A stretch of DNA of 64,000 nt from Wenjunlia tyrosinilytica (GTDB taxonomy: Bacteria > Actinomycetota > Actinomycetes > Streptomycetales > Streptomycetaceae): contig NZ_BMMS01000002.1 in NCBI RefSeq assembly GCF_014646055.1, forward strand, positions 17,729 through 81,728, read 5' to 3'. The position numbers and the translations under genes are program-made. The notes under the pieces are model-generated. The model saw nothing but the letters and a program-made list of their open reading frames with translations. It searched no databases and was not told the DNA's origin. Shown in pieces: positions 1 to 58,928 of the stretch (positions are counted from its first letter, which is position 1; the number at the start of each line of letters is the position of its first letter).

Positions 1-81
1 GAGGCCGCCGCCTCGGCGTTCGCCCACCCGGTCCTGCGCGGGGTGGTCCTCGCACGGGGGCCGGTCAGCTCTGGCGCATGA
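1..81 (+). CDS. C-terminal end of an unidentified protein (partial)
   Basis: Frame 1 is open from the window edge and gives 26 residues ending in RGPVSSGA before a TGA. Third codon positions are G/C-rich, as in real genes here. The stop lies inside the 3' end of the oppositely oriented FHA/ABC gene, so the two would be convergent and overlap by 17 bases. There is too little sequence to name a family, and the reading frame could be spurious. Confidence 0.3.
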   Translation, partial: EAAASAFAHPVLRGVVLARGPVSSGA

Positions 82-2641
82 CCTCGGGCTCGTGGCGGCG
101 CAGCAGCCGGACCACGATGAACCCGCAGATGACACCGAGCAGGAGCAGCACGGCGGAGTCGAACACCCACTGGCTCGCCGCGTGGTCCCACAGCGGGTCG
201 GTCGCCGTCGGGTTCGACTTGTCCTGCGGACCCATGAGCCTGCCCAGGTCGACCGTGGTGCCCTCGGCGGCGATGGCCCAGCGCGAGGGCATCAGCCACG
301 CGACCTGCTCGACACCGGGGCTGCTGAACAACCGGAACAGGATGCCGGTGAAGACGACCTGGACGATGGCGAAGAGCACCAGCAGAGGCATGGTCTTCTC
401 GGCGGTCTTGACCAGCGAGGAGATGACCAGGCCGAACATCATCGAGGTGAAGCCCAGGAGCATGATGACCAGCGTCATCTCGATGGTCGGGTTCTTCGCG
501 AGCAGGCCCTCCGCGGGCAGGTCGCGCGGGAAGAAGCCGATGGCGCAGATGATGATGCCCTGAAGGCCGGTGATCAGGCCCAGGACGATCACCTTCGACA
601 TCAGGTACGCCGACCTGGACAGCCCGGTCGCGCGTTCGCGTTCGTAGATCACCCGTTCCTTGATCAGCTCACGCACCGAGTTCGCCGCTCCGGAGAAGCA
701 GGCGCCGATGGCGAGGATGAGCAGGATGGTGCCCGAGTCCGCGTTGAACCGGGACGGCGGCTTGGGCGGGCCCAGGCCGAAGTCGGACGGGATCAAGGTG
801 CTCACGAAGCCGAGGATCGCGGGCAGAATGACCATCAGGGCGATGAAGCCCCGGTCGGAGGCGATCACCGACACATAGCGCCGGATGAGCGTCCACAGCT
901 GGGAGCCCCAGCTCTGCGGCTTCGGCGGCCGGCTCTGGGTGGGCTGGACGGGCACCGACTGCGGCGCCACGGCGTCGATGTCGGCGGCGTACTTCTGGTA
1001 GTGCATGGAGCCGTGCCAGCGGCCGCCCCAGTCGTGGTCCCGGTAGGTCTCGAACGCCTGGAAGACATCCGCCCAGGTCCCGTACCCGAAGAACTCCAGC
1101 GCCTCGTTCGGCGGACCGAAGTAGGCCACCGAGCCACCGGGGGCCATCACGAGAAGCCGGTCGCACAGTGCCAGCTCGGCGACCGAGTGGGTCACCACGA
1201 GCACGGTGCGGCCGTCGTCCGCGAGGCCGCGCAGCAACTGCATGACGTCACGGTCCATCCCCGGGTCGAGGCCGGAGGTCGGCTCGTCCAGGAAGATCAG
1301 CGACGGCTTGGTGAGGAGCTCCAGCGCGACGGAGACGCGCTTGCGCTGGCCACCGGAGAGGGAGGTGATGCGCTTGTCGGCGTGGATGTCGAGCTTGAGC
1401 TCGCCCAGCACCTCCTCGACGCGGCGGTTGCGCTCGGCGGCCTCGGTGTCACCGGGGAAGCGGAGCTTGGCCGCGTAGCGCAGCGCGGTGCGCACGGTGA
1501 GCTGGGCGTGCAGGATGTCGTCCTGCGGGACCAGGCCTATGCGCTGGCGCAGCTCGGCGAACTGCTTGTACAGATTGCGGTTGTCGTAGAGGACGTCGCC
1601 CTCGTCCGCCGGCCGGTAGCCGGTGAGCGCGCGCAGGAGCGTGGACTTGCCGGACCCGGAGGGGCCGATGACGCCGATGAGCGACTTCTCGGGAACACCG
1701 AAGCTGACGTTGTTCAGCAGGATCTTCTCGCCGTTGCCGTGCTTGACCTTGACGGTCAGGCGGCGCGAGGAGAAGGAGACCGCTCCGGTGTCGACGAACT
1801 CCTCGAGGCGGTCGCCGACGAGGCGGAACGTGGAGTGGCCGACACCGACGATGTCCTCGGGCCGCAGCAGGTGACGCTGGATCGGCTGGCCGTTGACGTA
1901 GGTGCCGTTGTGGCTGCCCAGGTCGACGATCTCGTAGCGGCCGTCGGCGGTGGTCCGGAACTCCGCGTGGTAGCGCGAGACCTGGAGGTCGGCGACGACC
2001 AGTTCGTTGTCGAGCGCACGGCCGATGCGGGTGGTCCTCGTGGTGAGGTTGCGGATCATGGTCGGTTCCGCCCGGCTGCCCAGCGGGGACGGCGCGCCGC
2101 CGCCCTGCGGCTGACGCTGCGGCACACCCGGGCCCGGGGACTGCTGGTGCGGAACCTGCGGCGGCTGGAAGGGCGGCTGCTGCTGGGGCGGCTGGAACGG
2201 CGGCTGTTGCGGCGGCTGGAAGGGCGGCTGCTGGGGCGGGGCCTGCGGCGGCGCGTAGCCGGGGCCGACGCCCGGGGCCATGGCCGTGGGCGCGCTGTAG
2301 ACATCGGCGCGCGCGGCGCTGAAGTTCAGCCGCGGACCGTCGGTCCCGTTGCCGAGGTGGATCGCCGAACCCGGGCCGACCGGCGCCTGGTTGACGCGCC
2401 GGCCCTGGGAGTACGTGCCATTGGTGCTGCCCTGGTCGTCGATGACCCAGCTGTGGCCGTTCCACCCGATGCTCGCGTGGCGCCAGGAGACCCGGGAGTC
2501 GTTGATCACCACGTCCGCCTGCGGATCACGGCCGATCACAAAGGGCCTGGACGGGTCAAGTGTCCAGGTCTGTCCGTTCAATTCAAGTACGAGTTCCGGC
2601 ACTCCATGCCCCACATAGTTGTCCCCCGAAAGATCCCCCAT
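65..2641 (-). CDS. Double-FHA-domain ABC transporter, fused ATPase and permease
   Basis: An 858-residue one-protein ABC half-transporter. An FHA domain lies at about residues 25-108, then a proline/glutamine-rich linker with repeated PPFQPPQ at about 125-180, then a second FHA domain at about 200-280 with an SRYH and SHNGTYVNG core. The ABC ATPase follows: Walker A GPSGSGKST at 326-334, signature LSGGQRKR, Walker B LIFLDEPTSGLDP. An ABC2-type permease with about six membrane segments fills 590-858. FHA domains bind phosphothreonine, so transport is probably controlled by Ser/Thr kinases (inference). The ATG at 2641 has no clear ribosome site. A GTG at 2602, just before PELVLELNG, is an alternative start. 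The substrate is unknown. It is divergent from the Streptophobe gene. Confidence 0.9.
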   Translation of the reverse strand: MGDLSGDNYVGHGVPELVLELNGQTWTLDPSRPFVIGRDPQADVVINDSRVSWRHASIGWNGHSWVIDDQGSTNGTYSQGRRVNQAPVGPGSAIHLGNGTDGPRLNFSAARADVYSAPTAMAPGVGPGYAPPQAPPQQPPFQPPQQPPFQPPQQQPPFQPPQVPHQQSPGPGVPQRQPQGGGAPSPLGSRAEPTMIRNLTTRTTRIGRALDNELVVADLQVSRYHAEFRTTADGRYEIVDLGSHNGTYVNGQPIQRHLLRPEDIVGVGHSTFRLVGDRLEEFVDTGAVSFSSRRLTVKVKHGNGEKILLNNVSFGVPEKSLIGVIGPSGSGKSTLLRALTGYRPADEGDVLYDNRNLYKQFAELRQRIGLVPQDDILHAQLTVRTALRYAAKLRFPGDTEAAERNRRVEEVLGELKLDIHADKRITSLSGGQRKRVSVALELLTKPSLIFLDEPTSGLDPGMDRDVMQLLRGLADDGRTVLVVTHSVAELALCDRLLVMAPGGSVAYFGPPNEALEFFGYGTWADVFQAFETYRDHDWGGRWHGSMHYQKYAADIDAVAPQSVPVQPTQSRPPKPQSWGSQLWTLIRRYVSVIASDRGFIALMVILPAILGFVSTLIPSDFGLGPPKPPSRFNADSGTILLILAIGACFSGAANSVRELIKERVIYERERATGLSRSAYLMSKVIVLGLITGLQGIIICAIGFFPRDLPAEGLLAKNPTIEMTLVIMLLGFTSMMFGLVISSLVKTAEKTMPLLVLFAIVQVVFTGILFRLFSSPGVEQVAWLMPSRWAIAAEGTTVDLGRLMGPQDKSNPTATDPLWDHAASQWVFDSAVLLLLGVICGFIVVRLLRRHEPEVMRQS

Positions 2642-2656: not shown

Positions 2657-4564
2657 ATGCTGAACATCGGGTGGAACTATTCCAGGCTCTTCGCGGGAAC
2701 GGGAGGCCGGGTTGGGGGGAGACTGGTTTCGGGCGGTTCCGACAACTTCGGCGCATTGCACTCGGGGGGCGGGATGGGCGGGTATGGGGGTTCACGGCTG
2801 AGATGGGGAAGCGTCGTGCTCTCCGCGGTGGCCGCGGTGAGTTGGGCGTTTCTGGCGATGGCGGGTGTCGCGGCGCTCGGGCTGCACCTGCTGGGGGCGG
2901 ACACGGCGGGCTCATTGGGCCCGATGACGGCGGCGGTCGTCGCGATGGCGGCCGGGGGCTCGGTGAGCCCGTCGGGAGACATGTCCGTCTTCGGGATGTC
3001 ACCGGCCGGGGCGCAGGGCGGCATCGGCATCATGCCGCTGGGGGTGAGCCTGGTCGGGGCGCTCCTGCTGGCGTGGGTGTTCCTGCGTCCGCTGCGCACG
3101 GGCCCGGTGGCCGTCGGTGAGCTGGTCGCGCGGGTGGTGAGCACGGCGGCGCTGTTCGTCGCGGTGCTCGGCGGTCTGGCGTGGGCCGGGCACGACACGG
3201 TCTCCATCGACGGCTCGGCGCTGGGCGGCGCAGGAGGCAAAGGCGGGGGCGGGGGCGGAGGTCTGCTGGACGGCATCCCCGGAATCGGCGGCTCGGGGGA
3301 TCTCGGCGATCTCGGTGACCTGGGCGACTTCGGCGACGGGCTCGAGGATTTGGTGAAGTCCCATTCCTCCGTGGGCTTCCACGTCAATACCGGTGCCACG
3401 CTCCTGCGGGGACTGGTGTGGGTGCTCGCGGTGGTGGTGATCGCGCTGGTCGCGTCGCGCCGCACCGCGCTGCCTCGCGGCTGGGAATTCGTCTCGCGCG
3501 CCGTCCGGCCCGCGGCGTCCGCGCTGGTGAGGGTCCTGCTGATGGCGGCGCTCGCGGGCGCGGCGGCGGGGCTCTACGCGGCGGCCACCGGCGACGAGCC
3601 GGGGAGGATCACCGGAGGCGTCCTGCTCGGGGCGCCCAACGGTGCCTGGCTGGCGGTGCCGCTGGGGCTGTTCGTCCCGTGGGACGGCTCCGTCTCGGGG
3701 CCCCTCGCACAATTCCTGCCCGCACCGGTGGACCGGCTGCTGAACGGCCATCCGGGCGGGCGGCAGATCACCTTGAGCCGTCTCGCGGAGCTGGACGGGA
3801 GGGTGTGGCTCCTCCCCGTGGCCGTGGTGCTGATGATGCTGACCGCCGGCGTGCTCAACGCGGCGAATGCGCCGCTCCCGCAGGGCGGCCGACCGGGGAC
3901 ACTGCGCCTGGCCGCGTCGGCGGCGGTACGGCTGGGGGTGGCCACGGCGGTGGCCCTGCCCCTGCTGGTGCGGGTGACCGGGGTATCGGTGGACGCGAAT
4001 GTGTCGGTCTTCGGGATCGACGCGGTCGGTGCGGGTCTGAAGCTCAACGGGGACGCGGTGACGGCGGTGGCGCTGGGTGCGGTGTGGGGGGCCGCGGCGG
4101 GGTTCGCCGGGGCACTGATGTTCGCAGCCGCGGGCGCCGGACGCGGGCGTGAACGAGCCGGGGAGGATTGGGCGGGGCAGACGGCGGCCGCGAAGGCGCC
4201 TGCCGGGCAGGCGGCCGCGCAGATGCGGGCCGGGCAGGTGGGAGGAGGGGCGGCCCCGGCGGCGTCGGCTCAGGCGAGACCCGGGCAGGGGGCGGCAGCC
4301 GGGCAGAGGTCACCCTGGCACGGGGCGGCAGCCGGGGAGGCGGCCGCGCAGGCCCAGCAGCCGGGGCCCTACAACCCCCGGCCTCCGTACCGTCCCGAAG
4401 GGCCCGAGCACAATCCCTACCGGGACGACCGGGGCTCCACGCAGCCACCGGACCACGGCCGGAGTCAGGGCGGGGACCAAGGCCGCAGTGAGGGCGCGGC
4501 AGAGCCGCCCGCGAGGAACGACTCCCCCACCCTTCCGGACGTACGGCGGCCTCGGGACCGCTGA
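2657..4564 (+). CDS. Streptophobe family polytopic membrane protein
   Basis: About 635 residues. The first two thirds carry roughly ten hydrophobic segments rich in Ala, Val, Leu and Gly, including the conserved AALGLHLLGAD stretch typical of the Streptophobe family. An extracytoplasmic-looking Gly/Asp-rich loop (repeated GDLGDLGD) splits the first and second membrane blocks. The last 150 residues are an Ala/Gln/Pro-rich, probably disordered tail. ATG 2657 has GAGGGGAG upstream but leaves only 15 bases to the divergent FHA/ABC start. ATG 2774 (MGGYGGSR) would give a more normal promoter space, so the start is uncertain. The function of the family is unknown. Confidence 0.8.
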   Translation: MLNIGWNYSRLFAGTGGRVGGRLVSGGSDNFGALHSGGGMGGYGGSRLRWGSVVLSAVAAVSWAFLAMAGVAALGLHLLGADTAGSLGPMTAAVVAMAAGGSVSPSGDMSVFGMSPAGAQGGIGIMPLGVSLVGALLLAWVFLRPLRTGPVAVGELVARVVSTAALFVAVLGGLAWAGHDTVSIDGSALGGAGGKGGGGGGGLLDGIPGIGGSGDLGDLGDLGDFGDGLEDLVKSHSSVGFHVNTGATLLRGLVWVLAVVVIALVASRRTALPRGWEFVSRAVRPAASALVRVLLMAALAGAAAGLYAAATGDEPGRITGGVLLGAPNGAWLAVPLGLFVPWDGSVSGPLAQFLPAPVDRLLNGHPGGRQITLSRLAELDGRVWLLPVAVVLMMLTAGVLNAANAPLPQGGRPGTLRLAASAAVRLGVATAVALPLLVRVTGVSVDANVSVFGIDAVGAGLKLNGDAVTAVALGAVWGAAAGFAGALMFAAAGAGRGRERAGEDWAGQTAAAKAPAGQAAAQMRAGQVGGGAAPAASAQARPGQGAAAGQRSPWHGAAAGEAAAQAQQPGPYNPRPPYRPEGPEHNPYRDDRGSTQPPDHGRSQGGDQGRSEGAAEPPARNDSPTLPDVRRPRDR

Positions 4565-4670
4565 GGGGCGGCTTCCGGTTGAAGACCAGGTGAAAGGTAC
4601 CGGTACAAGTGTCCGCCCACCGGGACGCTCGGCGCCGGTCCGAGTCACGCCCGCTAACGTGGGGCCTACC

Positions 4671-5888
4671 ATGAACGATTCCACCGCTCGAGCGGAATTC
4701 CCCACCCTGCTCGTCAAGATCTTCGGCAAGGACCGTCCAGGTATCACGGCCGGCCTGTTCGACACCCTGGCGGAGTTCGACCTCGACGTGGTCGACATCG
4801 AGCAGGTGGTCACGCGGGGCCGGCTGGTGCTGTGCGCGCTGGTCACGGTGCCCGCCGAGGGCACGGCCACCGAGGGGGAGCTGCGCGCCACCGTGCACCG
4901 CTGGGCGGAGTCGATGAAGCTCCAGGCGGAGATCCTCTCCGGTGTCGGCGACAACCGGCCGCGTGCCGAGGGACGCTCGCACGTCACCGTCCTCGGCCAC
5001 CCCCTGACCTCGGAGTCCACGGCCGCCATAGCCGCCCGTATAGCCGAGGTCGGCGGCAATATCGACCGTATCTTCCGGCTGGCGAAGTACCCGGTGACCG
5101 CGGTGGAGTTCGCCGTCTCCGGTGTCGCCACCGAGCCCCTGCGCAGCGCGCTCGCCGCCGAGGCCGCCAAACGCGGGGTCGATGTCGCCGTGGTCAGCGC
5201 GGGTCTGCACCGCAGGGCGCAGCGCCTGGTCGTGATGGACGTGGACTCCACCTTGATCCAGGACGAGGTGATCGAGCTGTTCGCCGCCCACGCGGGCTGC
5301 GAGGACCGCGTCGCCGAGGTCACCGCGGCGGCGATGCGCGGGGAACTGGATTTCGAGCAGTCGCTGCATGCCCGGGTGACGCTGCTGGGCGGACTCGACG
5401 CGAGTGTGGTGGACAAGGTCCGGGCGGAGGTCCGGCTGACCCCGGGGGCCCGCACACTCATCCGTACGCTCAAGAGGCTCGGCTATCTGGTCGGTGTGGT
5501 CTCGGGTGGCTTCACCCAGGTGACCGACGACCTCAAGGACCGGCTGGGACTGGACTTCGCGGCGGCGAACACGCTCGAGGTCGTGGACGGGAAGCTGACC
5601 GGCCGGGTCATCGGCGAGGTCGTGGACCGGGCGGGCAAGGCGCGGATACTGGCCAGGTTCGCGCAGGAGGCCGGGGTGCCGCTGTCGCAGACCGTCGCGA
5701 TCGGTGACGGGGCCAACGATCTGGACATGCTCAACGCGGCGGGGCTGGGGGTCGCCTTCAACGCCAAGCCGGTGGTGCGCGAGGCGGCGCACACGGCGGT
5801 CAATGTCCCCTTCCTGGACACGGTCCTCTATCTGCTGGGGATCACCCGGGAAGAGGTCGAGGCCGCGGACCTGGCGGACGGGTCCTGA
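4671..5888 (+). CDS. serB: Phosphoserine phosphatase SerB
   Basis: A 405-residue enzyme for the last step of serine synthesis, hydrolysing O-phosphoserine to L-serine. An ACT domain occupies about residues 10-85 and a second ACT-like region about 100-175. The HAD phosphatase domain starts at about 185, with motif I DVDSTL (D190 nucleophile, D192), motif II in VVSGGFTQV, and the metal-binding GDGANDLDM near residue 348. The two ACT domains suggest serine feedback, as in other actinobacterial SerB proteins. The start ATG follows a 106-base gap from the preceding gene, so it may have its own promoter. Length and all catalytic motifs are normal for the family. Confidence 0.95.
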   Translation: MNDSTARAEFPTLLVKIFGKDRPGITAGLFDTLAEFDLDVVDIEQVVTRGRLVLCALVTVPAEGTATEGELRATVHRWAESMKLQAEILSGVGDNRPRAEGRSHVTVLGHPLTSESTAAIAARIAEVGGNIDRIFRLAKYPVTAVEFAVSGVATEPLRSALAAEAAKRGVDVAVVSAGLHRRAQRLVVMDVDSTLIQDEVIELFAAHAGCEDRVAEVTAAAMRGELDFEQSLHARVTLLGGLDASVVDKVRAEVRLTPGARTLIRTLKRLGYLVGVVSGGFTQVTDDLKDRLGLDFAAANTLEVVDGKLTGRVIGEVVDRAGKARILARFAQEAGVPLSQTVAIGDGANDLDMLNAAGLGVAFNAKPVVREAAHTAVNVPFLDTVLYLLGITREEVEAADLADGS

Positions 5889-49039: not shown

Positions 49040-49575
49040 ACCCGCCAGCTCCGCTCTCCGCCCTCGAGCGCCGTATCGACGCGGCCCTCGGCGCCACGCA
49101 GGACGCCGAGGCCCCGCACCGCGACGCGTCCGGCTCCTTTGCGCCGGGCTCCGCCCGCAGAAGCCCGGGGGACCGGGCCGCCACCACGGTTCTGCTCGTC
49201 GGCCGGGGCTCGACCGACCCGGAGGCGAACGCGGAGCTGTGCAGGGTGGCCCGGCTGCTGTGGGAGGGCCGGGGGCTCGCGGGTGTCGAGACGGCGTTCG
49301 TGTCGGTCGCCGCGCCGGACGTCCCGGCCGGACTCGACCGCTGCCACCTGCTCGGCGCGCGGCGCGTTGTCCTGGTGCCGTTCCTCCTCGCCGACGAGGC
49401 CCTCAGCCGGCGGGCCCGGCTTCAGGCGGAGGGCTGGGCGGAGGCCCACCCGGAGGTCGAGTTGCGCTTCGCCGCCGCTGTCGGCCCGGAGGAGGACGAG
49501 GACGAGGGGGCCGCCGACGACCCCGACGGCCCCGACGGCCCCGACGGCATGGACAGCCGTGCACGCGCCCGCTGA
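49036..49575 (+). CDS. Truncated CbiX-like sirohydrochlorin chelatase fragment
   Basis: A 179-residue protein with one CbiX-like domain (about 50-150): TTVLLVGRGSTDPEANAEL, TAFVSVAAPDVPAGLDRC and LGARRVVLVPFLL. Full-length Streptomyces proteins have a first half with the metal-binding histidine (GHGTRD type) and a cysteine-bearing C-terminus. Here the N-terminal half is reduced to LSALERRIDAALG and the C-terminus diverges into an Asp/Gly-rich tail (DPDGPDGPDG). It is probably impaired or non-catalytic. The start overlaps the preceding stop. Confidence 0.6.
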   Translation: MNPPAPLSALERRIDAALGATQDAEAPHRDASGSFAPGSARRSPGDRAATTVLLVGRGSTDPEANAELCRVARLLWEGRGLAGVETAFVSVAAPDVPAGLDRCHLLGARRVVLVPFLLADEALSRRARLQAEGWAEAHPEVELRFAAAVGPEEDEDEGAADDPDGPDGPDGMDSRARAR

Positions 49576-49594
49576 GCCGGAGTCCCCAGGGTGC

Positions 49595-50725
49595 ATGGCA
49601 GCGGGCTTCGCGGACGTGGACCCCGCCGAAGCGGAGGCCGCCGAAGCGGGAGTCGCGAAGGCGGAGTTCGAGGTCGCCGGGGAGGTCGGGGTCATGGAGG
49701 CCTTCGATCTGCGCCATCACGGCGACACGGAGGTCGGCGACGGCCTGACCGACCTGGCCGTGAACGTCCGCTGGGGCACTCCTCCCCCCTGGCTGGCCAA
49801 GCGGCTCGCGGCGTCGCTCGGCGATCTGGCGGCCTATCCGGACGGACGGGCGGCCCGTGAGGCGGTGGCCGTGCGCCACCGCCGCCCCGTCGACGAGGTC
49901 CTGCTCACCGCGGGCGCCGCCGAGGCGTTCGTCCTGCTGGCCCGCGCCCTGGAACCCCGCCACGCGGTGGTGGTCCACCCGCAGTTCACCGAGCCGGAGG
50001 CGGCCCTGCGGGACGCGGGCCACGCGGTGGAACGGGTCCTGCTGCGCGAGGAGGACGGCTTCCGGCTCGACAACGCGGCCGTCCCCGAGGACGCCGATCT
50101 GGTCGTCGTGGGCAACCCCACCAACCCCACCTCGGTCCTGCACCCGGCCCCCGCCATCGCCTCCCTGGCCCGGCCGGGACGCACGCTCGTCGTGGACGAG
50201 GCGTTCATGGACACCGTGCCGGGCGAGGCCGAGTCACTGGCCTCGTGGCGGCATGTGCCGGGCCTGGTGGTCCTGCGCAGCCTCACCAAGACCTGGGGGC
50301 TGGCCGGGCTTCGGGTCGGCTATGCGCTGGGGCCGTCCGGCACCCTCGGACGGCTGGAGCGTGCCCAGCCGCTGTGGCCGGTGTCCACCCCCGCGCTCGC
50401 GGCGGTCGAGGCCTGCTGTTCCCCGTCGGCGCTGGCCGAGGCGGAGCAGTCGGCACGGAGCCTTGTCGGCGACCGGGCCCATCTGGTCGAGCGGCTCGGG
50501 CGGTTGGAGGCGGTGGAGGTGCCCGGCTCCCCCGCGGCGTCGTTCGTCCTGGTGCGGACACCGGGCGCGGCGGCGGTGAGGCGGCGGCTGCGGGAGCGCG
50601 GTTTCGCCGTGCGCAGGGGCGACACCTTTCCCGGCCTCGGGGAGGACTGGCTTCGGATCGCGGTGAGGGACCGGGCGACCACGGACCGGCTCTGCGCCGC
50701 GCTCGCGGAAGTCCTCGCTCTCTGA
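49595..50725 (+). CDS. PLP-dependent CobC-like protein
   Basis: A 376-residue fold-type I aminotransferase related to L-threonine-O-3-phosphate decarboxylase (CobC/CobD), which supplies aminopropanol phosphate. Conserved elements are LAAYPDGRAAREAVA, VVVGNPTNPTSV, TLVVDEAFMDT and the PLP lysine in SLTKTWGLAGLRVGY. The first 33 residues (AEAEAAEAG) are low complexity. ATG 49694 (MEAFDLRHHGDTEVGDG), behind GGGGAGG, is probably the true start. It is the last gene of the cob operon. Confidence 0.8.
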   Translation: MAAGFADVDPAEAEAAEAGVAKAEFEVAGEVGVMEAFDLRHHGDTEVGDGLTDLAVNVRWGTPPPWLAKRLAASLGDLAAYPDGRAAREAVAVRHRRPVDEVLLTAGAAEAFVLLARALEPRHAVVVHPQFTEPEAALRDAGHAVERVLLREEDGFRLDNAAVPEDADLVVVGNPTNPTSVLHPAPAIASLARPGRTLVVDEAFMDTVPGEAESLASWRHVPGLVVLRSLTKTWGLAGLRVGYALGPSGTLGRLERAQPLWPVSTPALAAVEACCSPSALAEAEQSARSLVGDRAHLVERLGRLEAVEVPGSPAASFVLVRTPGAAAVRRRLRERGFAVRRGDTFPGLGEDWLRIAVRDRATTDRLCAALAEVLAL

Positions 50726-50850: not shown

Positions 50851-53800
50851 CTACTTCAGCCCGAGCGCCTGGAGGTCGATACCGCCCAGCGCCGGCTGGA
50901 TGTAGGCATTGGTCAGGCGCGGACCGCGGTAGTTGAGCTGGCGGTCATGGATGATCGGCACCATCACCGCGTCCCACATCAGGGACTCGTCCACCTTCCG
51001 CCAGGTCTTGTCCGCCTTGGCCCGGTCCTTCTCGCGCTCGGCGTCGTCCATCAGGCCGTCGATGTCCCAGTCGACCAGCCCGGAGTAGTTGTAGGCGCTG
51101 TCCTTGCCGACGAGGGGGCGCAGGAATCCGGCGGGCGCCGGCCAGTCGGAGGACCAGGCGGTGAGCGCGACGGCCCATTTCTTCTTCTTCACCACCGAGG
51201 CCCTGCCCAGGTTGGTGTAGTAGTCGGCGCCGCTGATCATCTCGATGTCCGCCTTGATGCCGACCTTCTTGAGATTCCCCTGAAGGACCTCGAGGACTTC
51301 GCGGTTCCTGGGGTTGGCCGAGCTGGCCACGAGCTTGGTGGAGAAGCCCTTCGGCTTGTCGCAGGCGTCCAGCGACCGCTTCGCCTCGAGGATCTGCGGA
51401 CCGGCCTTGGTGCCGTAGGGGTCGAGGCTCTTGTCGAAGCCGCGGATCGTGGGCGGGAGCATCCCCGAGGCGATGTCTCCCCCGGCGGTCCGGCCGCCGA
51501 GCACCGCGCGCATATCGGGCTTGTCCACGGCGTACTCGACCGCGCGGCGGCAGTTGACGTTGTCGAAAGGCGGCACGGTGGTCTGAATGCTGAAGTAGCG
51601 CACTCCGCCGGTGTAGGCGGCGTCGGACCGCGCCTTGAGCTTGTCGCTGTTCTGGATGCTGGTCTGCGCCGTCTCGCCCACGCCGAGCTGCGCCGCGTCG
51701 ACGTCCACCTCCCCGTTGAGCAGCGCCTGGTCCACCGCGTCCTGCCCTCCCGAGGGGAAGCTGAACTCGATCTCGTCGGGCAGGGCGGTGCGAACGGGGT
51801 CGGTGGAGGCGTCCCACTGGTCGTTGCGGACCAGGCGCAGGGACTGGGCGCCGGAGGAGGTGAAGGGCGCCTGGAGCTTGTAGGGGCCGCTGGCGACGGG
51901 CTTCTTCTCGTACTCCTTCTGCGTGTCCTTGTCCTTGGGCACGGGGGCCGCGATCGACATGGCCAGAACGTAGGGGAAGTCGGGGAACGGGTCCTTCAGC
52001 TTGAAGACGATCGTGCTGTCGTCCGGAGTGGTGACCGAGCGAAGACCCAGCTTCTGCGGATCGCTGTCCTTGTACGGGCCGGGGTAGTGCTGGCCCTGGT
52101 CGAGCAGGTCCACCAGGTGGCTGGGGCCGGTGCCGTAGACGTCCTGGGCGAAGGTGCGCTCGATGCCGTACTTCACGTCCCTGGACGTGATCGTGGTGCC
52201 GTCCTCGAACCGCAGGCCCCGCTTGAGCTCGAATGTGTAGGTCTTGCCGTCGGCGGAGACCTCACCGGTGCTGGTGGCGAGGTCCGGCCTGAGCTTCGTC
52301 CCGGCCTCTCCGGGCATGGGTGCGTAGTCGACGAGCTTGCGCAGGTAGATGCGCTGGAGGTTCCAGGCCATGCTGGTGTAGGAGCGGGCCGGGTCGAGCG
52401 AGTCGGGCGGGTAGGCGGAGGCGATCTTGAGAGTGCCGCCCTTCTTCTTGGAGGGGTTCACCGCGCCGGTCAGTGCCCCGTTGAAGCCACTGGTGCTCCT
52501 GCGGTCCTTGACGATGTCCCCGGTCTTGCCGTCGTGGGACTTGTCGTTCGTGGCGCGGTCCTTGGTGTCGCCGCTTCCGCCGAACGGATGGAAGACCAGG
52601 GCGGCCGTCGTCAGCAGCCCCGCGACGGCGACCGCGGCGCCCGCGACCATCCAGCGGCGCCGTGCCCCGCGCGTGGAGGGGGGCGCCTGGGGCGGCGCCG
52701 GCGGGTAGGCGAGCGGGGAGGGGCCGGGGCGGATGTCCCGCAGGGCGGGGTGAACGGCGCCGGGGTCCCTCAACGGCGGGACCGGGATCTGCTGGGGCGG
52801 CGAGGAGTGGGGTGGCAGGGGACCAGCCGCCCCGGCGGCCGCGGCCGCCGCTCCCGCCGCCGAGACGGCGGCGGGACCGCCCTCCTTGACGAACAGGAAC
52901 ATCGTCCGGGGATCGGGAGTGCCCGAACCCCCACTGCCGACAGCACCGCTGCCCGCGGCACCACTGGCGTCAGCACCGCTGCCCGCGGCACCACTGGCGT
53001 CAGCACCGCTGCCCGCGGCACCACTGGCGTCAGCGCCGCCGACCGCGTAGCCACCGGTGGCCGAACTGCCACTGGCCGCCGAACCGGCGGCCGAAGCACC
53101 ACTGCCGGAAGCACCACTGCCGGAAGCTCCACTGCCCGCGGCGCCACTGCCCGGAGCTCCCTCGGCGGCGGCACCGCCGGCCGCCTGGACATCGATCGCC
53201 CCACCGCCGACGGCGTTGCCGCCCACCGCCCCGCCGCCGGCCCCCTTGTCCAGGGCCACCCGCTCGGCGTCGGCTCTTCCCGCCTGGGGCCGTCCCGCCT
53301 CGGGCCGTCCCGCCAGCCACTCCCGCAGGGAGCCCCGCATCGTCACCGCGTCGACCGGACGTTCCTGCGGGTCCTTGGCCAGGGCCGCCAGCACGACGGC
53401 CTCGAGCTCCCTCGGCACCCGCGGGTTGCGCTCGGACAGGCTCGGCGGGGCCTGGTGGACATGCAGGTACATCACGTTCAGCGCGGAGTTGCCGGTGAAC
53501 GGCACCTCCCCGGTGAGGAGTTCGGTGAGCATGCAGCCCACCGCGTACAGATCGCTGCGGGCGTCCACATGGCGCCCGAGCACCTGCTCGGGCGCCATGT
53601 AGCCGGGGGTTCCCACGGTGAAGCCGGTGCCCGTCAGCCGGGTGGAGACCGAGTCGGCCACGCGCGCGATGCCGAAGTCCGCCACCTTCACCGCGCCGGA
53701 CTTGGTGATCATCACATTCGACGGCTTCACATCGCGGTGCACCGTCCCCCGCGAATGCGCGTGGGCCAGCGCGTCCAGCACATCGCAGGTGATGCGCACG

Positions 53801-54156
53801 GCGCGTTCGACGTCCATCGGCACTTCGGTCTTGGCGATGTCCTCGAGCGTGGAGCCGTCGATGTACTCCATGACCAGGTACGGCACTATGCCGTCCTCGT
53901 CGTGGACTTCGTTCTGGTCGTGGACGGTGACGATGCCGGGGTGGTTCAACGCGGCCGCGGCTCGGGCCTCGCGCGCGAATCTGCTGCGGGCCTCGGGGTC
54001 CCTGGCCAGCTCGGGATGCAGCGTCTTGAGCGCGACGATGCGCCCCAGCCTGGTGTCGCGCGCCCGGTGGACGCGGGCCATGCCGCCGGAGCCCAGCAGT
54101 TTCTGCAGTTCGAAGCGCGCTCCGAACAGCGCCCCACCCATGCGCGCCCCCGACAT
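50851..54156 (-). CDS. Transmembrane Ser/Thr protein kinase fused to an ABC-type solute-binding domain
   Basis: An 1101-residue protein. Kinase domain at about 15-275: GSGGMARV glycine loop, K44, HRDVKPSNV (D142), DFG 160-162, APE 188-190. A long Gly/Ala/Ser linker (about 305-415) includes three ADASGAAGSG repeats. A Pro-rich part follows, then a single membrane helix at 502-524 (WMVAGAAVAVAGLLTTAALV). Residues 570-1101 form a family 5 (peptide/nickel) solute-binding domain: GGTLKIASAYPPDSLDP, PVASGPYKLQAPF, CRRAVEYAVD, ADYYTNL. The domain should face outside. ATG 54141 is an alternative start. No transporter genes are adjacent. Confidence 0.85.
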   Translation of the reverse strand: MSGARMGGALFGARFELQKLLGSGGMARVHRARDTRLGRIVALKTLHPELARDPEARSRFAREARAAAALNHPGIVTVHDQNEVHDEDGIVPYLVMEYIDGSTLEDIAKTEVPMDVERAVRITCDVLDALAHAHSRGTVHRDVKPSNVMITKSGAVKVADFGIARVADSVSTRLTGTGFTVGTPGYMAPEQVLGRHVDARSDLYAVGCMLTELLTGEVPFTGNSALNVMYLHVHQAPPSLSERNPRVPRELEAVVLAALAKDPQERPVDAVTMRGSLREWLAGRPEAGRPQAGRADAERVALDKGAGGGAVGGNAVGGGAIDVQAAGGAAAEGAPGSGAAGSGASGSGASGSGASAAGSAASGSSATGGYAVGGADASGAAGSGADASGAAGSGADASGAAGSGAVGSGGSGTPDPRTMFLFVKEGGPAAVSAAGAAAAAAGAAGPLPPHSSPPQQIPVPPLRDPGAVHPALRDIRPGPSPLAYPPAPPQAPPSTRGARRRWMVAGAAVAVAGLLTTAALVFHPFGGSGDTKDRATNDKSHDGKTGDIVKDRRSTSGFNGALTGAVNPSKKKGGTLKIASAYPPDSLDPARSYTSMAWNLQRIYLRKLVDYAPMPGEAGTKLRPDLATSTGEVSADGKTYTFELKRGLRFEDGTTITSRDVKYGIERTFAQDVYGTGPSHLVDLLDQGQHYPGPYKDSDPQKLGLRSVTTPDDSTIVFKLKDPFPDFPYVLAMSIAAPVPKDKDTQKEYEKKPVASGPYKLQAPFTSSGAQSLRLVRNDQWDASTDPVRTALPDEIEFSFPSGGQDAVDQALLNGEVDVDAAQLGVGETAQTSIQNSDKLKARSDAAYTGGVRYFSIQTTVPPFDNVNCRRAVEYAVDKPDMRAVLGGRTAGGDIASGMLPPTIRGFDKSLDPYGTKAGPQILEAKRSLDACDKPKGFSTKLVASSANPRNREVLEVLQGNLKKVGIKADIEMISGADYYTNLGRASVVKKKKWAVALTAWSSDWPAPAGFLRPLVGKDSAYNYSGLVDWDIDGLMDDAEREKDRAKADKTWRKVDESLMWDAVMVPIIHDRQLNYRGPRLTNAYIQPALGGIDLQALGLK
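52941..53030. repeat. Three exact 30-base repeats in the kinase linker
   Basis: CAGCACCGCTGCCCGCGGCA plus ten further bases is repeated three times without change inside the kinase gene, encoding ADASGAAGSG. It lengthens the flexible link between kinase and membrane. Confidence 0.9.
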
Positions 54157-54322: not shown

Positions 54323-55258
54323 TCAGCGCCTGGAGGCCGACCCCCGGCGCCGCAGCCGCAGCAGCAGCGCACCACCCGCGACCAGTGACGCGCCGACGCC
54401 GCCGAGGGCGAGGCCGCTGCCGCCGCCGGTCTCGGCGAGGTGGTGGGTCTGGGGCTTGTCGACGACCGGCTCGGCGCTGGGCGACTGGCTCGGCTGGTCG
54501 GGCGTGATGGGCGTACGGCAGGTGGCCTCGGCGAGCACGATATCGCCCGCCACCTTGGCGACCCCGAGACGGAGCGGGTCGATCGAGACCTTGAGCCTGA
54601 GCGCGGTGGCGGCCGCGGTACGGCGAGTGGTGGTCTTCTGCGCAATCGCGAGTTTGACGTGTCCCACGCCCGGCACGTCGGCCTCGGTGGTTCCGGCGGT
54701 GTTCAGCGACAGGGGCCGGCCGAGGACCACGACCTTGCCCACGAGCCGGGAGTCGGCGACCGGTTCCTTGCCCGCGACACACAGGGCACGGGACTTGACG
54801 GCCTGCGCCCGGACCAGGGGGGTCAGGGGCAGTCCGGGGACATGGACATCGACGTCGGCGAGGTCGGCGCGCCCCTCGGCCCTGTCGCCCGAGGACCGGG
54901 CGGAGGTCCTGGCGACGTCGGCCCGGACGATCTCGACCGGCCTGCCCCCGTCGACGCCCCCGATCCTCGCGGTCAGCAGCGTCGCCGCGCTGTTGCGCGG
55001 GGCGTACACCTGGTTGAGCGAGAGGTTGACCGGGACGTCCACGCTCTTGCCGACCAGGGAGACGTCGAGGGCGACCCGTGCGGCGACCGCCGAGGCCCGG
55101 CCGGAGGCCTGGATGCCGGTGGCGTGTGCCGGGGCGGCGAGGACGGCGGACGGGAGTGCCGCGCCCAGGACCGCGGCTGCGGCGGCGGCCGTGGTGGACA
55201 CCGCCGGGCGGCGTGCGGGCAGGCCGAAGACATTCGTGTGCAAGTGAGAAACCCCCAC
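54323..55258 (-). CDS. LAETG-anchored cell-surface protein (SCO1860-like)
   Basis: A 311-residue surface protein. A signal peptide covers about 1-46 (AVSTTAAAAAAVLGAALPSAVLAAPAHA). The mature part is beta-rich with Ala/Val repeats. A Pro/Ser spacer (PDQPSQSPSAEP) leads to the sorting signal LAETGGGSG, a hydrophobic helix and the basic tail RLRRRGSASRR. LAETG is used by class E sortases of Streptomyces. The first codon is uncertain (GTG 55258 or a TTG 15 bases later). It is next to the kinase gene on the same strand, 166 bases apart. Confidence 0.8.
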   Translation of the reverse strand: MGVSHLHTNVFGLPARRPAVSTTAAAAAAVLGAALPSAVLAAPAHATGIQASGRASAVAARVALDVSLVGKSVDVPVNLSLNQVYAPRNSAATLLTARIGGVDGGRPVEIVRADVARTSARSSGDRAEGRADLADVDVHVPGLPLTPLVRAQAVKSRALCVAGKEPVADSRLVGKVVVLGRPLSLNTAGTTEADVPGVGHVKLAIAQKTTTRRTAAATALRLKVSIDPLRLGVAKVAGDIVLAEATCRTPITPDQPSQSPSAEPVVDKPQTHHLAETGGGSGLALGGVGASLVAGGALLLRLRRRGSASRR

Positions 55259-55517: not shown

Positions 55518-57434
55518 ATGTATACACGGAGAACCACCTCGGCGACCGTCCTCGCCTACGCGGTGGTGGCCGCGGTGGCCGGCGTGAGCTCCTGCGGCTC
55601 CCCCGCACCGCGGACCAGGCCTGCCGCCGTGACGGGAGCGGTCCGGGTGAACCAGGTCGGCTACGCGGACTCCGGTTCCAAGGAAGCCTTCCTCCTCGCC
55701 AAAGGCGTCGTCTCCGGAGCCACCTGGAAGCTGCTGGACTCCCATGGCGCCCTCGCCGCGTCCGGGACCACCGGCAAGAGCCTGGGCAGCTGGAACAAGG
55801 CGTATCCGGCCGTCTACGGCATCGACTTCTCCTCGGTGAAGGGCGCGGGCACCTACCACCTCCGGGTGAGCGGCGCGGCGACCGCCTCATCGCCCTCGTT
55901 CACCATCGGGACGCCCAAGTCCGTCCACGGGAAGGTCGCGCGGGACGCGACGGCGTTCTTCCAGGCCCAGCGCGACGGCTCCGACGTGGTGCCGGGACAG
56001 CTCAAGCGCAAGCCCTCGCACCTGAACGACCGCAAGGCCGCGGTGTACAACCAGCCGTCGTTCACCTCGAGCGACGGCGACACCATCAAGAAGGCTCCGA
56101 CGAAGATCGCCGGGGTGGGCCCGGTGAACGCCGAGGGCGGCTGGTTCGACGCCGGGGACTATCTGAAGTTCACCGTCACCACCTCCTACGCCGCCGCCGC
56201 GCTGCAGATCGCCGCCCGCGAGAGCGGTGCGAGCCCCTCGTCGACGCTGGGCGAGGAGGCGCAGCACGGCCTCGACTGGCTGGACCGGATGTGGGACGAG
56301 AAGACGAAGACCCTCTACATCCAGGTGGGGCTGGGTTCGGGGACGGACAGCGGCAGCGTGGTCGGGGACCACGACGTGTGGCGGCTGCCCGAGAAGGACG
56401 ACGCCGACTCGGTGAAGGAGCACGCGTTCCTGAAGAACCGGCCGGTCTTCCGCGCCGGCGCTCCGGGGTCCCGGCTGAGCCCCAACCAGGCGGGCCGCCT
56501 CGCCGCCGACTTCGCCCTCGCCGCCCAGCGCCACGCGGCCTCGGACCCGGAGAAGGCGCGCGGCTACCTGAGGACGGCGGCACAGATCTACGCGCTGGCC
56601 GACACCACTCCGGGCAGGCTGGTCACCGCGGTGCCGTACGGCTACTACCCGGAGACCAGCTGGAAGGACGACCTGGCCTTCGGCGGCGCCGAGTTGGCGC
56701 TGGCCGGGCAGGCGCTGAAGGACTCACGCGCGTCGGGCTGGCTGTCGAAGGCGGCCTCCTGGGCGAAGGCGTACGACGAGGACGACGACCACGGCACGCT
56801 GAACATGTACGACACCAGTGCCCTGGCCTACGCGGACCTGGCGCGGGCGGTGAGGGCCGCGGGTGATCCCGAGGGCCTGCCGATCGGGTACGACGCCCTG
56901 GTGGCGGATCTGAGGGCGCAGCTCGCTCAGGGCAAGGCGCGGGCGGGCAAGGACCCGTTCCACGCGGGCGCGGTCTACGACGGCTTCGACGCGGACTCGC
57001 ACACCCTCGGCCTGGCCGCCTCGGCGCGGCTGTACCGGCGGCTGACCGGGGACACCTCGTTCAACCGCTTCGCCTCCCAGCAGCTCGGCTGGGTGCTGGG
57101 GGCCAACGCCTGGGGCACCTCGTTCATGGTCGGCGAGGGCTCGACCTTCCCCACGTGCACGGCGGGGCAGCTGGGCAACCTCGCGGGCGCACTGAACGGC
57201 AAGCCGCTGCTCGAGATCGGGGCGATCGTCAACGGCCCCAATGGGACCGAGCAGTTCGACGAAGGGCTCGGCGACTTCGGCGCCATGCGCAAGTGCCCGT
57301 CGGGAAGCGACCCCTTCAGCGCCTTCACGGGGCACGGCAGCAAGTACGTGGACGACGCGCGCTCGTGGCAGACCAGCGAACCGGCCCTCGACATGGATGC
57401 CTCGGGCCTGCTCGCGTTCACGCTGTCGAGCTAG
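55518..57434 (+). CDS. GH9 family glycoside hydrolase, probable lipoprotein
   Basis: A 638-residue secreted enzyme. The signal sequence ends in a lipobox-like GVSSC (C26). An N-terminal Ig-like CelD_N domain (VNQVGYADSGSKEAFL, about 42-130) precedes the (alpha/alpha)6 GH9 domain. GGWFDAGDYLKFT contains the catalytic Asp pair, and the C-terminal TSEPALDMDASGLL contains the proton-donor Glu region. GH9 enzymes are endo- or exo-beta-1,4-glucanases or glucosaminidases. No carbohydrate-binding module is present. Upstream palindromes suggest substrate-controlled expression. Confidence 0.9.
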   Translation: MYTRRTTSATVLAYAVVAAVAGVSSCGSPAPRTRPAAVTGAVRVNQVGYADSGSKEAFLLAKGVVSGATWKLLDSHGALAASGTTGKSLGSWNKAYPAVYGIDFSSVKGAGTYHLRVSGAATASSPSFTIGTPKSVHGKVARDATAFFQAQRDGSDVVPGQLKRKPSHLNDRKAAVYNQPSFTSSDGDTIKKAPTKIAGVGPVNAEGGWFDAGDYLKFTVTTSYAAAALQIAARESGASPSSTLGEEAQHGLDWLDRMWDEKTKTLYIQVGLGSGTDSGSVVGDHDVWRLPEKDDADSVKEHAFLKNRPVFRAGAPGSRLSPNQAGRLAADFALAAQRHAASDPEKARGYLRTAAQIYALADTTPGRLVTAVPYGYYPETSWKDDLAFGGAELALAGQALKDSRASGWLSKAASWAKAYDEDDDHGTLNMYDTSALAYADLARAVRAAGDPEGLPIGYDALVADLRAQLAQGKARAGKDPFHAGAVYDGFDADSHTLGLAASARLYRRLTGDTSFNRFASQQLGWVLGANAWGTSFMVGEGSTFPTCTAGQLGNLAGALNGKPLLEIGAIVNGPNGTEQFDEGLGDFGAMRKCPSGSDPFSAFTGHGSKYVDDARSWQTSEPALDMDASGLLAFTLSS

Positions 57435-57521: not shown

Positions 57522-58610
57522 TCACACCACCCGCCCCCGCAGCACGATGCGCTGCGGGTCGGCGAGGACCCGGACGTCGTCGCGGGGGTCCTCGGCATAG
57601 ACCACCAGGTCCGCCGAGGCCCCCTCGGTGAGGCCGTCGCGACCGAGCCACTCGCGGGCCCCCCAGGTGGTCGCCGACAGCGCCTCGACCCGGCTCAGCC
57701 CGGCCATCACCAGCTCGGCGACCTCCTGGGCCACCAGGCCGTGCGGGAGCGAGCCGCCCGCGTCGGTACCGACGTAGACGGGGATTCCGGCGTCGAATGC
57801 TGAGCGCACGGTGTCGTAGCGGCGCTCCCACAGCCGCCGCATGTGGTCCGCGTACCGCGGGAACTTCGCCTCGCCCGCGGCGGCGATGTCCGGGAAGGTG
57901 GCGATGTTGACCAGGGTCGGGACGATCGCGACCTGCCGCTCGGCGAACAGCGGGATGGTCTCGTCGGTCAGCCCGGTGGCGTGCTCGACGCAGTCGATCC
58001 CGGCCTCGACGAGATCGGCGAGCGAGTCCTCGGCGAAGCAGTGGGCCGTGACCCGGGCGCCTTCCTCGTGCGCCGCGGCGATGGCCGCCTCGACCGCCTC
58101 GCGCGGCCAGCAGGGCGACAGGTCCCCCCGGTCGCGTTCGATCCAGTCGCCGACGAGCTTGACCCAGCCGTCGCCGCGCCGTGCCTCGCGCCGCACATAC
58201 GCGACGAGGTCCTCGGGCTCGATCTCGTGGGCGAAGTTGCGGATGTAGCGGCGGGGGCGGGCGATGTGGCGCCCGGCCCGGATGATCCTCGGCAGGTCCT
58301 CGCGGTCGTCGATCCAGCGGGTGTCCGCGGCCGAGCCGGCGTCGCGGATCAGCAGCGTCCCGGTCTCGCGGTCCTGGATGGCCTGCTTCTCAGCTGTGGC
58401 GGCGTCGACGGCGCCATGGGAGTCCAGGCCGACGTGGCAGTGGGCGTCGACGAGTCCGGGCAGGACCCATCCTCGGACGGTGCGGATGTCGCGGGCCAGC
58501 GAGGGCCGGTCGTAGGTGACGCGGCCGTCGACCACCCACATCTCGTCCCTGACGTCCTCGGGACCCACCAGGACCCGGCCCTCGATGTGCAGCACCGCGC
58601 GATCAGTCAT
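57522..58610 (-). CDS. Amidohydrolase family protein
   Basis: A 362-residue metal-dependent hydrolase. GLVDAHCHVGLD (H57, H59) is the first metal motif. VKLVGDWIERD supplies the carboxylated-Lys-like site, GARVTAHCFAED and GIDCVEHATGL the later histidines, and YVGTDAGGSL the final aspartate. The pattern is that of imidazolonepropionase/Xaa-Pro dipeptidase-like amidohydrolases. The substrate is unknown. The ATG at 58610 gives MTDRAVLHIEGRVL. It is divergent from ectA. Confidence 0.85.
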   Translation of the reverse strand: MTDRAVLHIEGRVLVGPEDVRDEMWVVDGRVTYDRPSLARDIRTVRGWVLPGLVDAHCHVGLDSHGAVDAATAEKQAIQDRETGTLLIRDAGSAADTRWIDDREDLPRIIRAGRHIARPRRYIRNFAHEIEPEDLVAYVRREARRGDGWVKLVGDWIERDRGDLSPCWPREAVEAAIAAAHEEGARVTAHCFAEDSLADLVEAGIDCVEHATGLTDETIPLFAERQVAIVPTLVNIATFPDIAAAGEAKFPRYADHMRRLWERRYDTVRSAFDAGIPVYVGTDAGGSLPHGLVAQEVAELVMAGLSRVEALSATTWGAREWLGRDGLTEGASADLVVYAEDPRDDVRVLADPQRIVLRGRVV

Positions 58611-58928
58611 GGCCGCACGATACGCCCAGGCGGCGCGACCCGGCATTGACGGTTGCCCGATGCGTCACGGCATTTTCCCGGGGCACTCCTTTCCAGAAGT
58701 CGCGGGGCTAAACAGACTTCTTTTCCACTGTCTCGTTCGACACTTTTTCCACGGCGCCGACCTGCGCCGTTATCCGACTGTAATCATTGGTCTCGACCAC
58801 CGTCAATATCCCGACATACCAGGGCATCACGGCGGCAATTTCACGCTCGCGCGATAACATATTCCGCTACGACACGGAACCCCGATGGCCCATGCATTCG
58901 AACTCGGCAATCGGTAGGTTCAACGCAC
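58611..58928. promoter_or_regulatory. 318-base spacer upstream of ectA
   Basis: The half next to ectA is much richer in A/T than the surrounding DNA (for example GATAACATATTCC at about 58852-58864), as expected of a regulated promoter. No certain -35/-10 pair or operator was identified. No gene was seen. Confidence 0.4.

Follow-up and report, generated by a model that had tools for sequence, protein, structure and literature searches.

A predicted receptor Ser/Thr kinase whose outside domain is a complete family 5 solute-binding protein

Introduction

What does a bacterial Ser/Thr kinase do with a complete solute-binding protein (SBP) on the far side of a membrane helix? The question is raised by a gene in the window, by which we mean the whole 64,000-nucleotide stretch of Wenjunlia tyrosinilytica DNA analysed here. 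An earlier note on this DNA had proposed that a receptor kinase made of one chain took its ligand sensor from the binding domain of an importer. The abstract of PMC6069109 calls the activation of bacterial Ser/Thr kinases an outstanding question. From its sequence, we predict that the protein is a single-chain, ligand-gated transmembrane receptor Ser/Thr kinase, a reading that we consider probable.

Results

The gene occupies positions 50851..54156 of the minus strand, where a frame of 1101 codons plus stop runs uninterrupted from an ATG at 54156 to a TAG at 50851, giving a protein of 1101 aa. The coordinates and description in the earlier note were right, with two corrections: the binding domain proper spans about residues 562-1101, and the true start may be M6 (54141), an alternative in-frame start where the match to the genus mate's protein sets in. 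GC3 in the coding frame is 0.90-0.98, except in the Ala/Gly/Ser linker at residues 301-420 (0.67-0.73), whose base composition would also allow for two frame errors that offset each other locally. The contiguity of kinase and SBP is independent of this stretch, because a single ORF encodes the same order of kinase, linker, helix and SBP in the genus mate as well as in many further genomes. It is exceedingly improbable that adjacent genes were fused by a sequencing or assembly error: GC3 is uninformative at these linker residues, but two genera show the same single ORF in genomes that were sequenced independently and in which the linkers differ while the helix matches, and judged by these homologues such an artefact can be regarded as already refuted for the architecture. 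The exception is one genome (G263, locus L220), in which the kinase and SBP halves lie in different frames, shifted within the linker; a sequencing error and a real split are both possible there. We conclude that the kinase-SBP protein is real and conserved, and that it is likely functional.

A Hanks-type Ser/Thr kinase domain covers residues 15-267 (53356..54114, minus strand; Pfam PF00069, E 6.4e-50, far above the cutoff). Its catalytic motifs are complete (K44, HRD 140-142, DFG 160-162, APE 188-190), bearing out the intact domain read earlier from K44, HRD and DFG, and K44, D142, N147, D160 and E190 are invariant in 13 of 13 fused proteins; the predicted activity is Ser/Thr phosphorylation. 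Identity as a PASTA kinase (Stk1/PknB) was rejected, since the NCBIfam model PknB_PASTA_kin (NF033483) scored 373 bits, below its cutoff of 450, and the Pfam search found no PASTA repeats in the protein. The earlier statement that such kinases carry PASTA repeats or no sensor proved too narrow: this same genome has kinases joined to SBP_bac_3, to PQQ propellers and to a penicillin-binding transpeptidase domain. The last is a single ORF on contig C6 of this genome (L171:970-3498, plus strand) that reads as a kinase, a PBP dimerisation domain and a penicillin-binding transpeptidase, apparently the fusion of a kinase with a cell-wall enzyme, and a gene on contig C16 (L175:618-2579, plus strand) joins a kinase to an SBP_bac_3 domain of the amino-acid type.

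The cytoplasmic linker (residues 290-500, 52657..53289, minus strand) is rich in Ala/Gly/Ser and then in Pro. It is of low complexity and about 200-230 residues long, and its length and sequence differ among homologues. It leads to the only strong hydrophobic stretch in the protein, a single membrane helix at residues 502-524 (52585..52653, minus strand; hydropathy 2.18) with a cluster of Arg on the kinase side. Both the helix itself and its presence in orthologues, on which the earlier note had staked its proposal, held up: all 13 fused homologues keep it, 45-60 residues ahead of the SBP, with 4-6 K/R before it and 0-2 after it. By the positive-inside rule, this predicts a single-pass receptor layout with the kinase inside and the sensor outside. 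The structure model of the whole chain is of low quality (pLDDT 54, pTM 0.33, linker pLDDT about 25); it leaves the helix unresolved and holds no information on the arrangement of the parts.

Residues 553-1101 (50854..52500, minus strand) comprise a juxtamembrane segment and the extracellular SBP_bac_5 domain. Pfam PF00496 matches residues 621-1021 (E 1.4e-67, 228.9 bits against a gathering score of 32.4), and several peptide and nickel SBP models of NCBIfam match below their cutoffs. The sensor is modelled with confidence (mean pLDDT 92.3), and the model predicts the full two-lobe fold of the family; the complete family 5 binding domain claimed earlier is thus supported by both the Pfam score and the structure prediction, in which the whole binding fold is kept. 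The closest solved structure is OppA2 (2wok/2wop), with a TM score of 0.94 and Z values of 48.6 and 48.4, the next being 36.3 (Foldseek, VIA-align). The superposition has an rmsd of 1.9 A over 538 residues, and OppA2 is 38-39% identical to the sensor.

W1001 and D1004 are invariant in 49 of 49 fused and unfused rows, and we take them to correspond to the W-x-x-D segment of OppA (Asp419). In OppA and DppA, the Asp binds the amino group of the peptide. Because OppA2 is nearest by a wide margin and these two residues are invariant, our first guess is that the candidate ligand is a peptide or amino-acid-like, which is likelier than a nickel complex. The peptide thus stands among the three ligands suggested previously (a peptide, an opine or a nickel-like complex), and nickel or an opine is not supported, the structural and sequence matches being weaker than for OppA2 (for NikA, Z 30.5 vs 48.6 and profile E 1e-22 vs 5e-188). 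Muropeptides would be a sensible second guess because the kinase is PASTA-like. Comparison with 33 lipoproteins identified 23 positions that are near-fixed in them but not constant in the fused clade (R886, Y594 and Y680 are examples), about as many positions that vary the opposite way and some 80 columns conserved in both groups. In the fused clade, the ligand preference may have changed or binding may have weakened. We rejected this drift as proof of lost transport, since the differences run both ways.

The relatives of the sensor point to its source. The nearest SBP in the same genome outside this gene is a lipoprotein, 44% identical, encoded between DppC- and DppB-type permeases (the C19 operon of G000). 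Across 80 named relatives and many further ones from genome surveys, those that are unfused nearly always have a lipobox and lie beside permease genes; the exceptions include a handful of Dactylosporangium genes with no permease nearby. The fused sequences of the window, the genus mate and the Actinacidiphila-type genus (hereafter clade A) have no lipobox upstream of the SBP and no adjoining permeases in the genomes examined, and the kinase domain occupies the N-terminus, where importer lipoproteins carry a signal peptide with the lipobox Cys. At this locus in the window, the flanking genes examined include no permease genes, as had been observed before. We therefore rejected the identity of an ABC importer binding lipoprotein, given the missing lipobox Cys and the missing DppB/DppC-type permeases beside the gene. 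The recruitment proposed in the earlier note agrees with all of these results: the domain groups with importer lipoproteins, is found without lipobox or permeases, retains the whole fold and has the expected topology.

We surveyed how widely this architecture is kept. In the genus mate, the same protein is encoded in one frame with an SBP that is 60% identical. The fusion is carried by 8 of 61 Streptomycetaceae genomes, namely both genomes of the window's own genus and six of the Actinacidiphila-type genus (g7). In the latter genus, the SBP is found at E 1e-160 or better in 28 of 35 genomes, in 25 of them in frames of at least 938 aa, and kinase and SBP share an ORF at 13 of the 13 long-frame loci opened, a set outside which the two short frames of G256 and G272 fall. 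The kinase-helix-SBP_bac_5 order is thus kept in the genus mate and in the Actinacidiphila-type genus. A class-wide survey of 198 genomes found no fusion close to this SBP outside the window's own genome among the loci opened, which exclude long frames in G061, G165 and G242. A scan of genome contigs with the single protein detected no relatives; the alignment-based scan found them.

Where fused genomes were compared, the kinase-SBP gene lies after an amidohydrolase gene (57522..58646 in the window, minus strand; Pfam PF01979), which is kept at the locus with or without the kinase. It runs towards a convergent cobC-like aminotransferase gene (49571..50725, start approximate, plus strand; named from a reading of the sequence and its position in a cobalamin cluster), the other border of the insertion site. 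A gene for an LAETG-anchored surface protein of the SCO1860 family (54323..55258, minus strand; NF041527, 274 bits against a cutoff of 200) precedes the kinase-SBP gene in seven of the eight fused genomes compared. Five genomes, three of them from the carriers' genus (G021, G038 and G050) and two others (G011 and G029), have the amidohydrolase, SCO1860-type and cobC-like genes and no kinase or SBP gene between the latter two. This pattern points to gain or loss of the kinase gene at a fixed site, with the LAETG gene present regardless. The LAETG protein had been suggested as a signalling partner; the suggestion does not fit its presence at the same locus in kinase-free relatives, nor the genus mate, where the kinase is present but neither an SCO1860 protein nor a cobC match could be detected at the locus. 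A GH9 cellulase-like gene (55518-57434, plus strand) lies between the LAETG and amidohydrolase genes only in the window among the genomes compared. The other suggested partner, a protein with two FHA domains, an ABC ATPase and an ABC-2 membrane domain (65-2641, minus strand), is encoded about 48 kb from the kinase, and we found no tie between the two.

Further fusions with family 5 domains were encountered. Kitasatospora phosalacinea has kinase-helix-SBP_bac_5 fusions (L101 and L125) that apparently arose independently of clade A and whose kinase belongs to a different group. Two Streptomyces plasmids carry a third, distant kinase-SBP_bac_5 type (L012:3992-6802 and L013:4007-6664), which is also present in the genome of another member of the Streptomycetaceae (L187 in G039); in both plasmid records, the fusion bears no other label than 'ABC transporter substrate-binding protein'. 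In Streptomyces sp. S465, a helix connects an EACC1-type caspase with an SBP_bac_5 domain that resembles OppA2 (L123:4828-7656, plus strand; NF047832), and a small overlapping upstream gene (4265-4831) could be the EACC1 partner of this protein.

In the SBP tree, the clade A domains form one group (SH-aLRT 100). The SBPs of the K. phosalacinea fusions group with Kitasatospora lipoproteins (100), that of the caspase fusion lies among Streptomyces and Embleya lipoproteins (99), and those of the plasmid fusions fall far outside. The starred branches of this tree force four changes of the lipoprotein label. In quick trees, with groups named after inspection of the data, clade A and K. phosalacinea as one group were modestly rejected (AU p 0.027), and clade A and the caspase fusion held together were rejected strongly (2e-13). 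In the kinase tree, the clade A kinases fall with this genome's PASTA kinases (SH-aLRT 93, below the starred level), the K. phosalacinea kinases join a different set of kinases from this genome (99) and the plasmid kinases stand apart. A common origin of the clade A and K. phosalacinea fusions was rejected on the AU value and the different kinase group. Fusions of kinases with family 5 domains thus probably arose at least twice, and perhaps three times.

Discussion

Beyond domain content and topology, everything in our account of the receptor is inference. The outside domain would close its two lobes on a peptide or amino-acid-like ligand, and closure would alter the distance or pairing of the kinase domains, a change passed on by the helix. 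The kinases would then phosphorylate each other and, next, cytosolic target proteins, so that ligand supply would be turned into a phosphorylation signal without transport. Ligand-induced dimerisation of PASTA kinases, leading to mutual phosphorylation, has been reported (PMC6213207), and solute-binding proteins activate receptors of other types by docking (PMC9602780). Rigid coupling is hard to picture across the flexible linker of 200 residues between kinase and helix.

Other readings of the same architecture have to be weighed. The SBP may bind peptidoglycan peptides and take the role of PASTA repeats, making the protein a sensor of the cell wall; this would be a special case of the receptor with another ligand, and we consider it unlikely. 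The grouping of the fused kinases with this genome's PASTA kinases speaks for it, although support for that grouping is below the starred level, and MppA and DppE, which bind murein peptides, have the same fold (Z 33.9 and 34.5) but are no closer than many family members, OppA2 being far closer. Rather more doubtful is a sensor coupled to a transporter, in which the tethered SBP would dock on an Opp permease encoded elsewhere and report transport. The related C19 operon in the same genome could supply such a permease, yet the clade A genomes examined have none at this locus, and the positions fixed in lipoproteins have drifted, though the drift is not decisive.

It is also improbable, in our view, that the outside domain has degenerated or plays a structural part only, with ligand binding lost. 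Several residues invariant in the lipoproteins are indeed lost, and in one genome the two halves of the protein lie in different frames; against this stand the columns that fused and unfused sequences both keep (W1001 and D1004 among them), the confident full fold and the retention of the domain across two genera. The ligand-gated receptor is the reading that we carry forward.

This receptor is of value because it can be tested and because such fusions have recurred. Its sensor is an entire binding protein for which a close crystal structure is available and the class of ligand is known, and therefore its ligand and the response of the kinase are accessible to ordinary binding screens and direct tests. 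We put forward, as a proposal that we judge about as likely as not, that the OppA2-like importer family is a plug-in receptor module which evolution has linked by a helix, more than once, to different enzymes inside the cell. These would be an EACC1-type caspase and the kinases of two lineages, clade A and K. phosalacinea, with a third kinase type using a more distant family 5 sensor. In Streptomyces sp. S465, a peptide outside the cell may be the signal on which the caspase acts. Such recurrent joining, to kinases as well as to a caspase, would mean that actinobacteria reuse parts of nutrient uptake as receptors. Database labels conceal this class of fusions.

In the literature searched, whose coverage is incomplete and includes few subscription journals, we found no published description of a kinase-SBP_bac_5 protein, and several known systems resemble it in part. 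OppA2 (ORF15), from the clavulanic acid cluster of Streptomyces clavuligerus, is the nearest solved relative of the sensor, and its crystals contain arginine or bradykinin; it differs in being a stand-alone protein without a kinase, and the fused clade deviates at the lipoprotein-fixed positions. PASTA kinases (PknB/PrkC) are the closest kinase group in this genome and share the layout of kinase, helix and outside sensor, whereas the PASTA domain is absent here. As described in part of PMC7159879, EACC1 systems include caspases with a transmembrane helix and an outer periplasmic-binding domain. They resemble our protein in joining enzyme, helix and binding domain, and L123 uses a near relative of the clade A SBP; however, the enzyme is the caspase of a two-gene system, and a kinase version with a family 5 sensor is not described in the portion of that survey on which we draw.

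The nearest parallel is GlnH-GlnX-PknG of Mycobacterium and Corynebacterium, a resemblance of function only, for which PMC6069109 and PMC9769921 propose that an outside SBP signals through a membrane protein to an inside Ser/Thr kinase. That system consists of three separate proteins with an amino-acid-binding SBP, whereas here one chain carries a family 5 domain. The kinase-SBP_bac_3 protein of the same genome likewise places a solute-binding domain after a kinase in one chain, but its binding domain is of the smaller family 3 and its kinase belongs to a different group. The joining of a kinase to a solute-binding domain is therefore of an already known kind, and the family 5 sensor is the new part.
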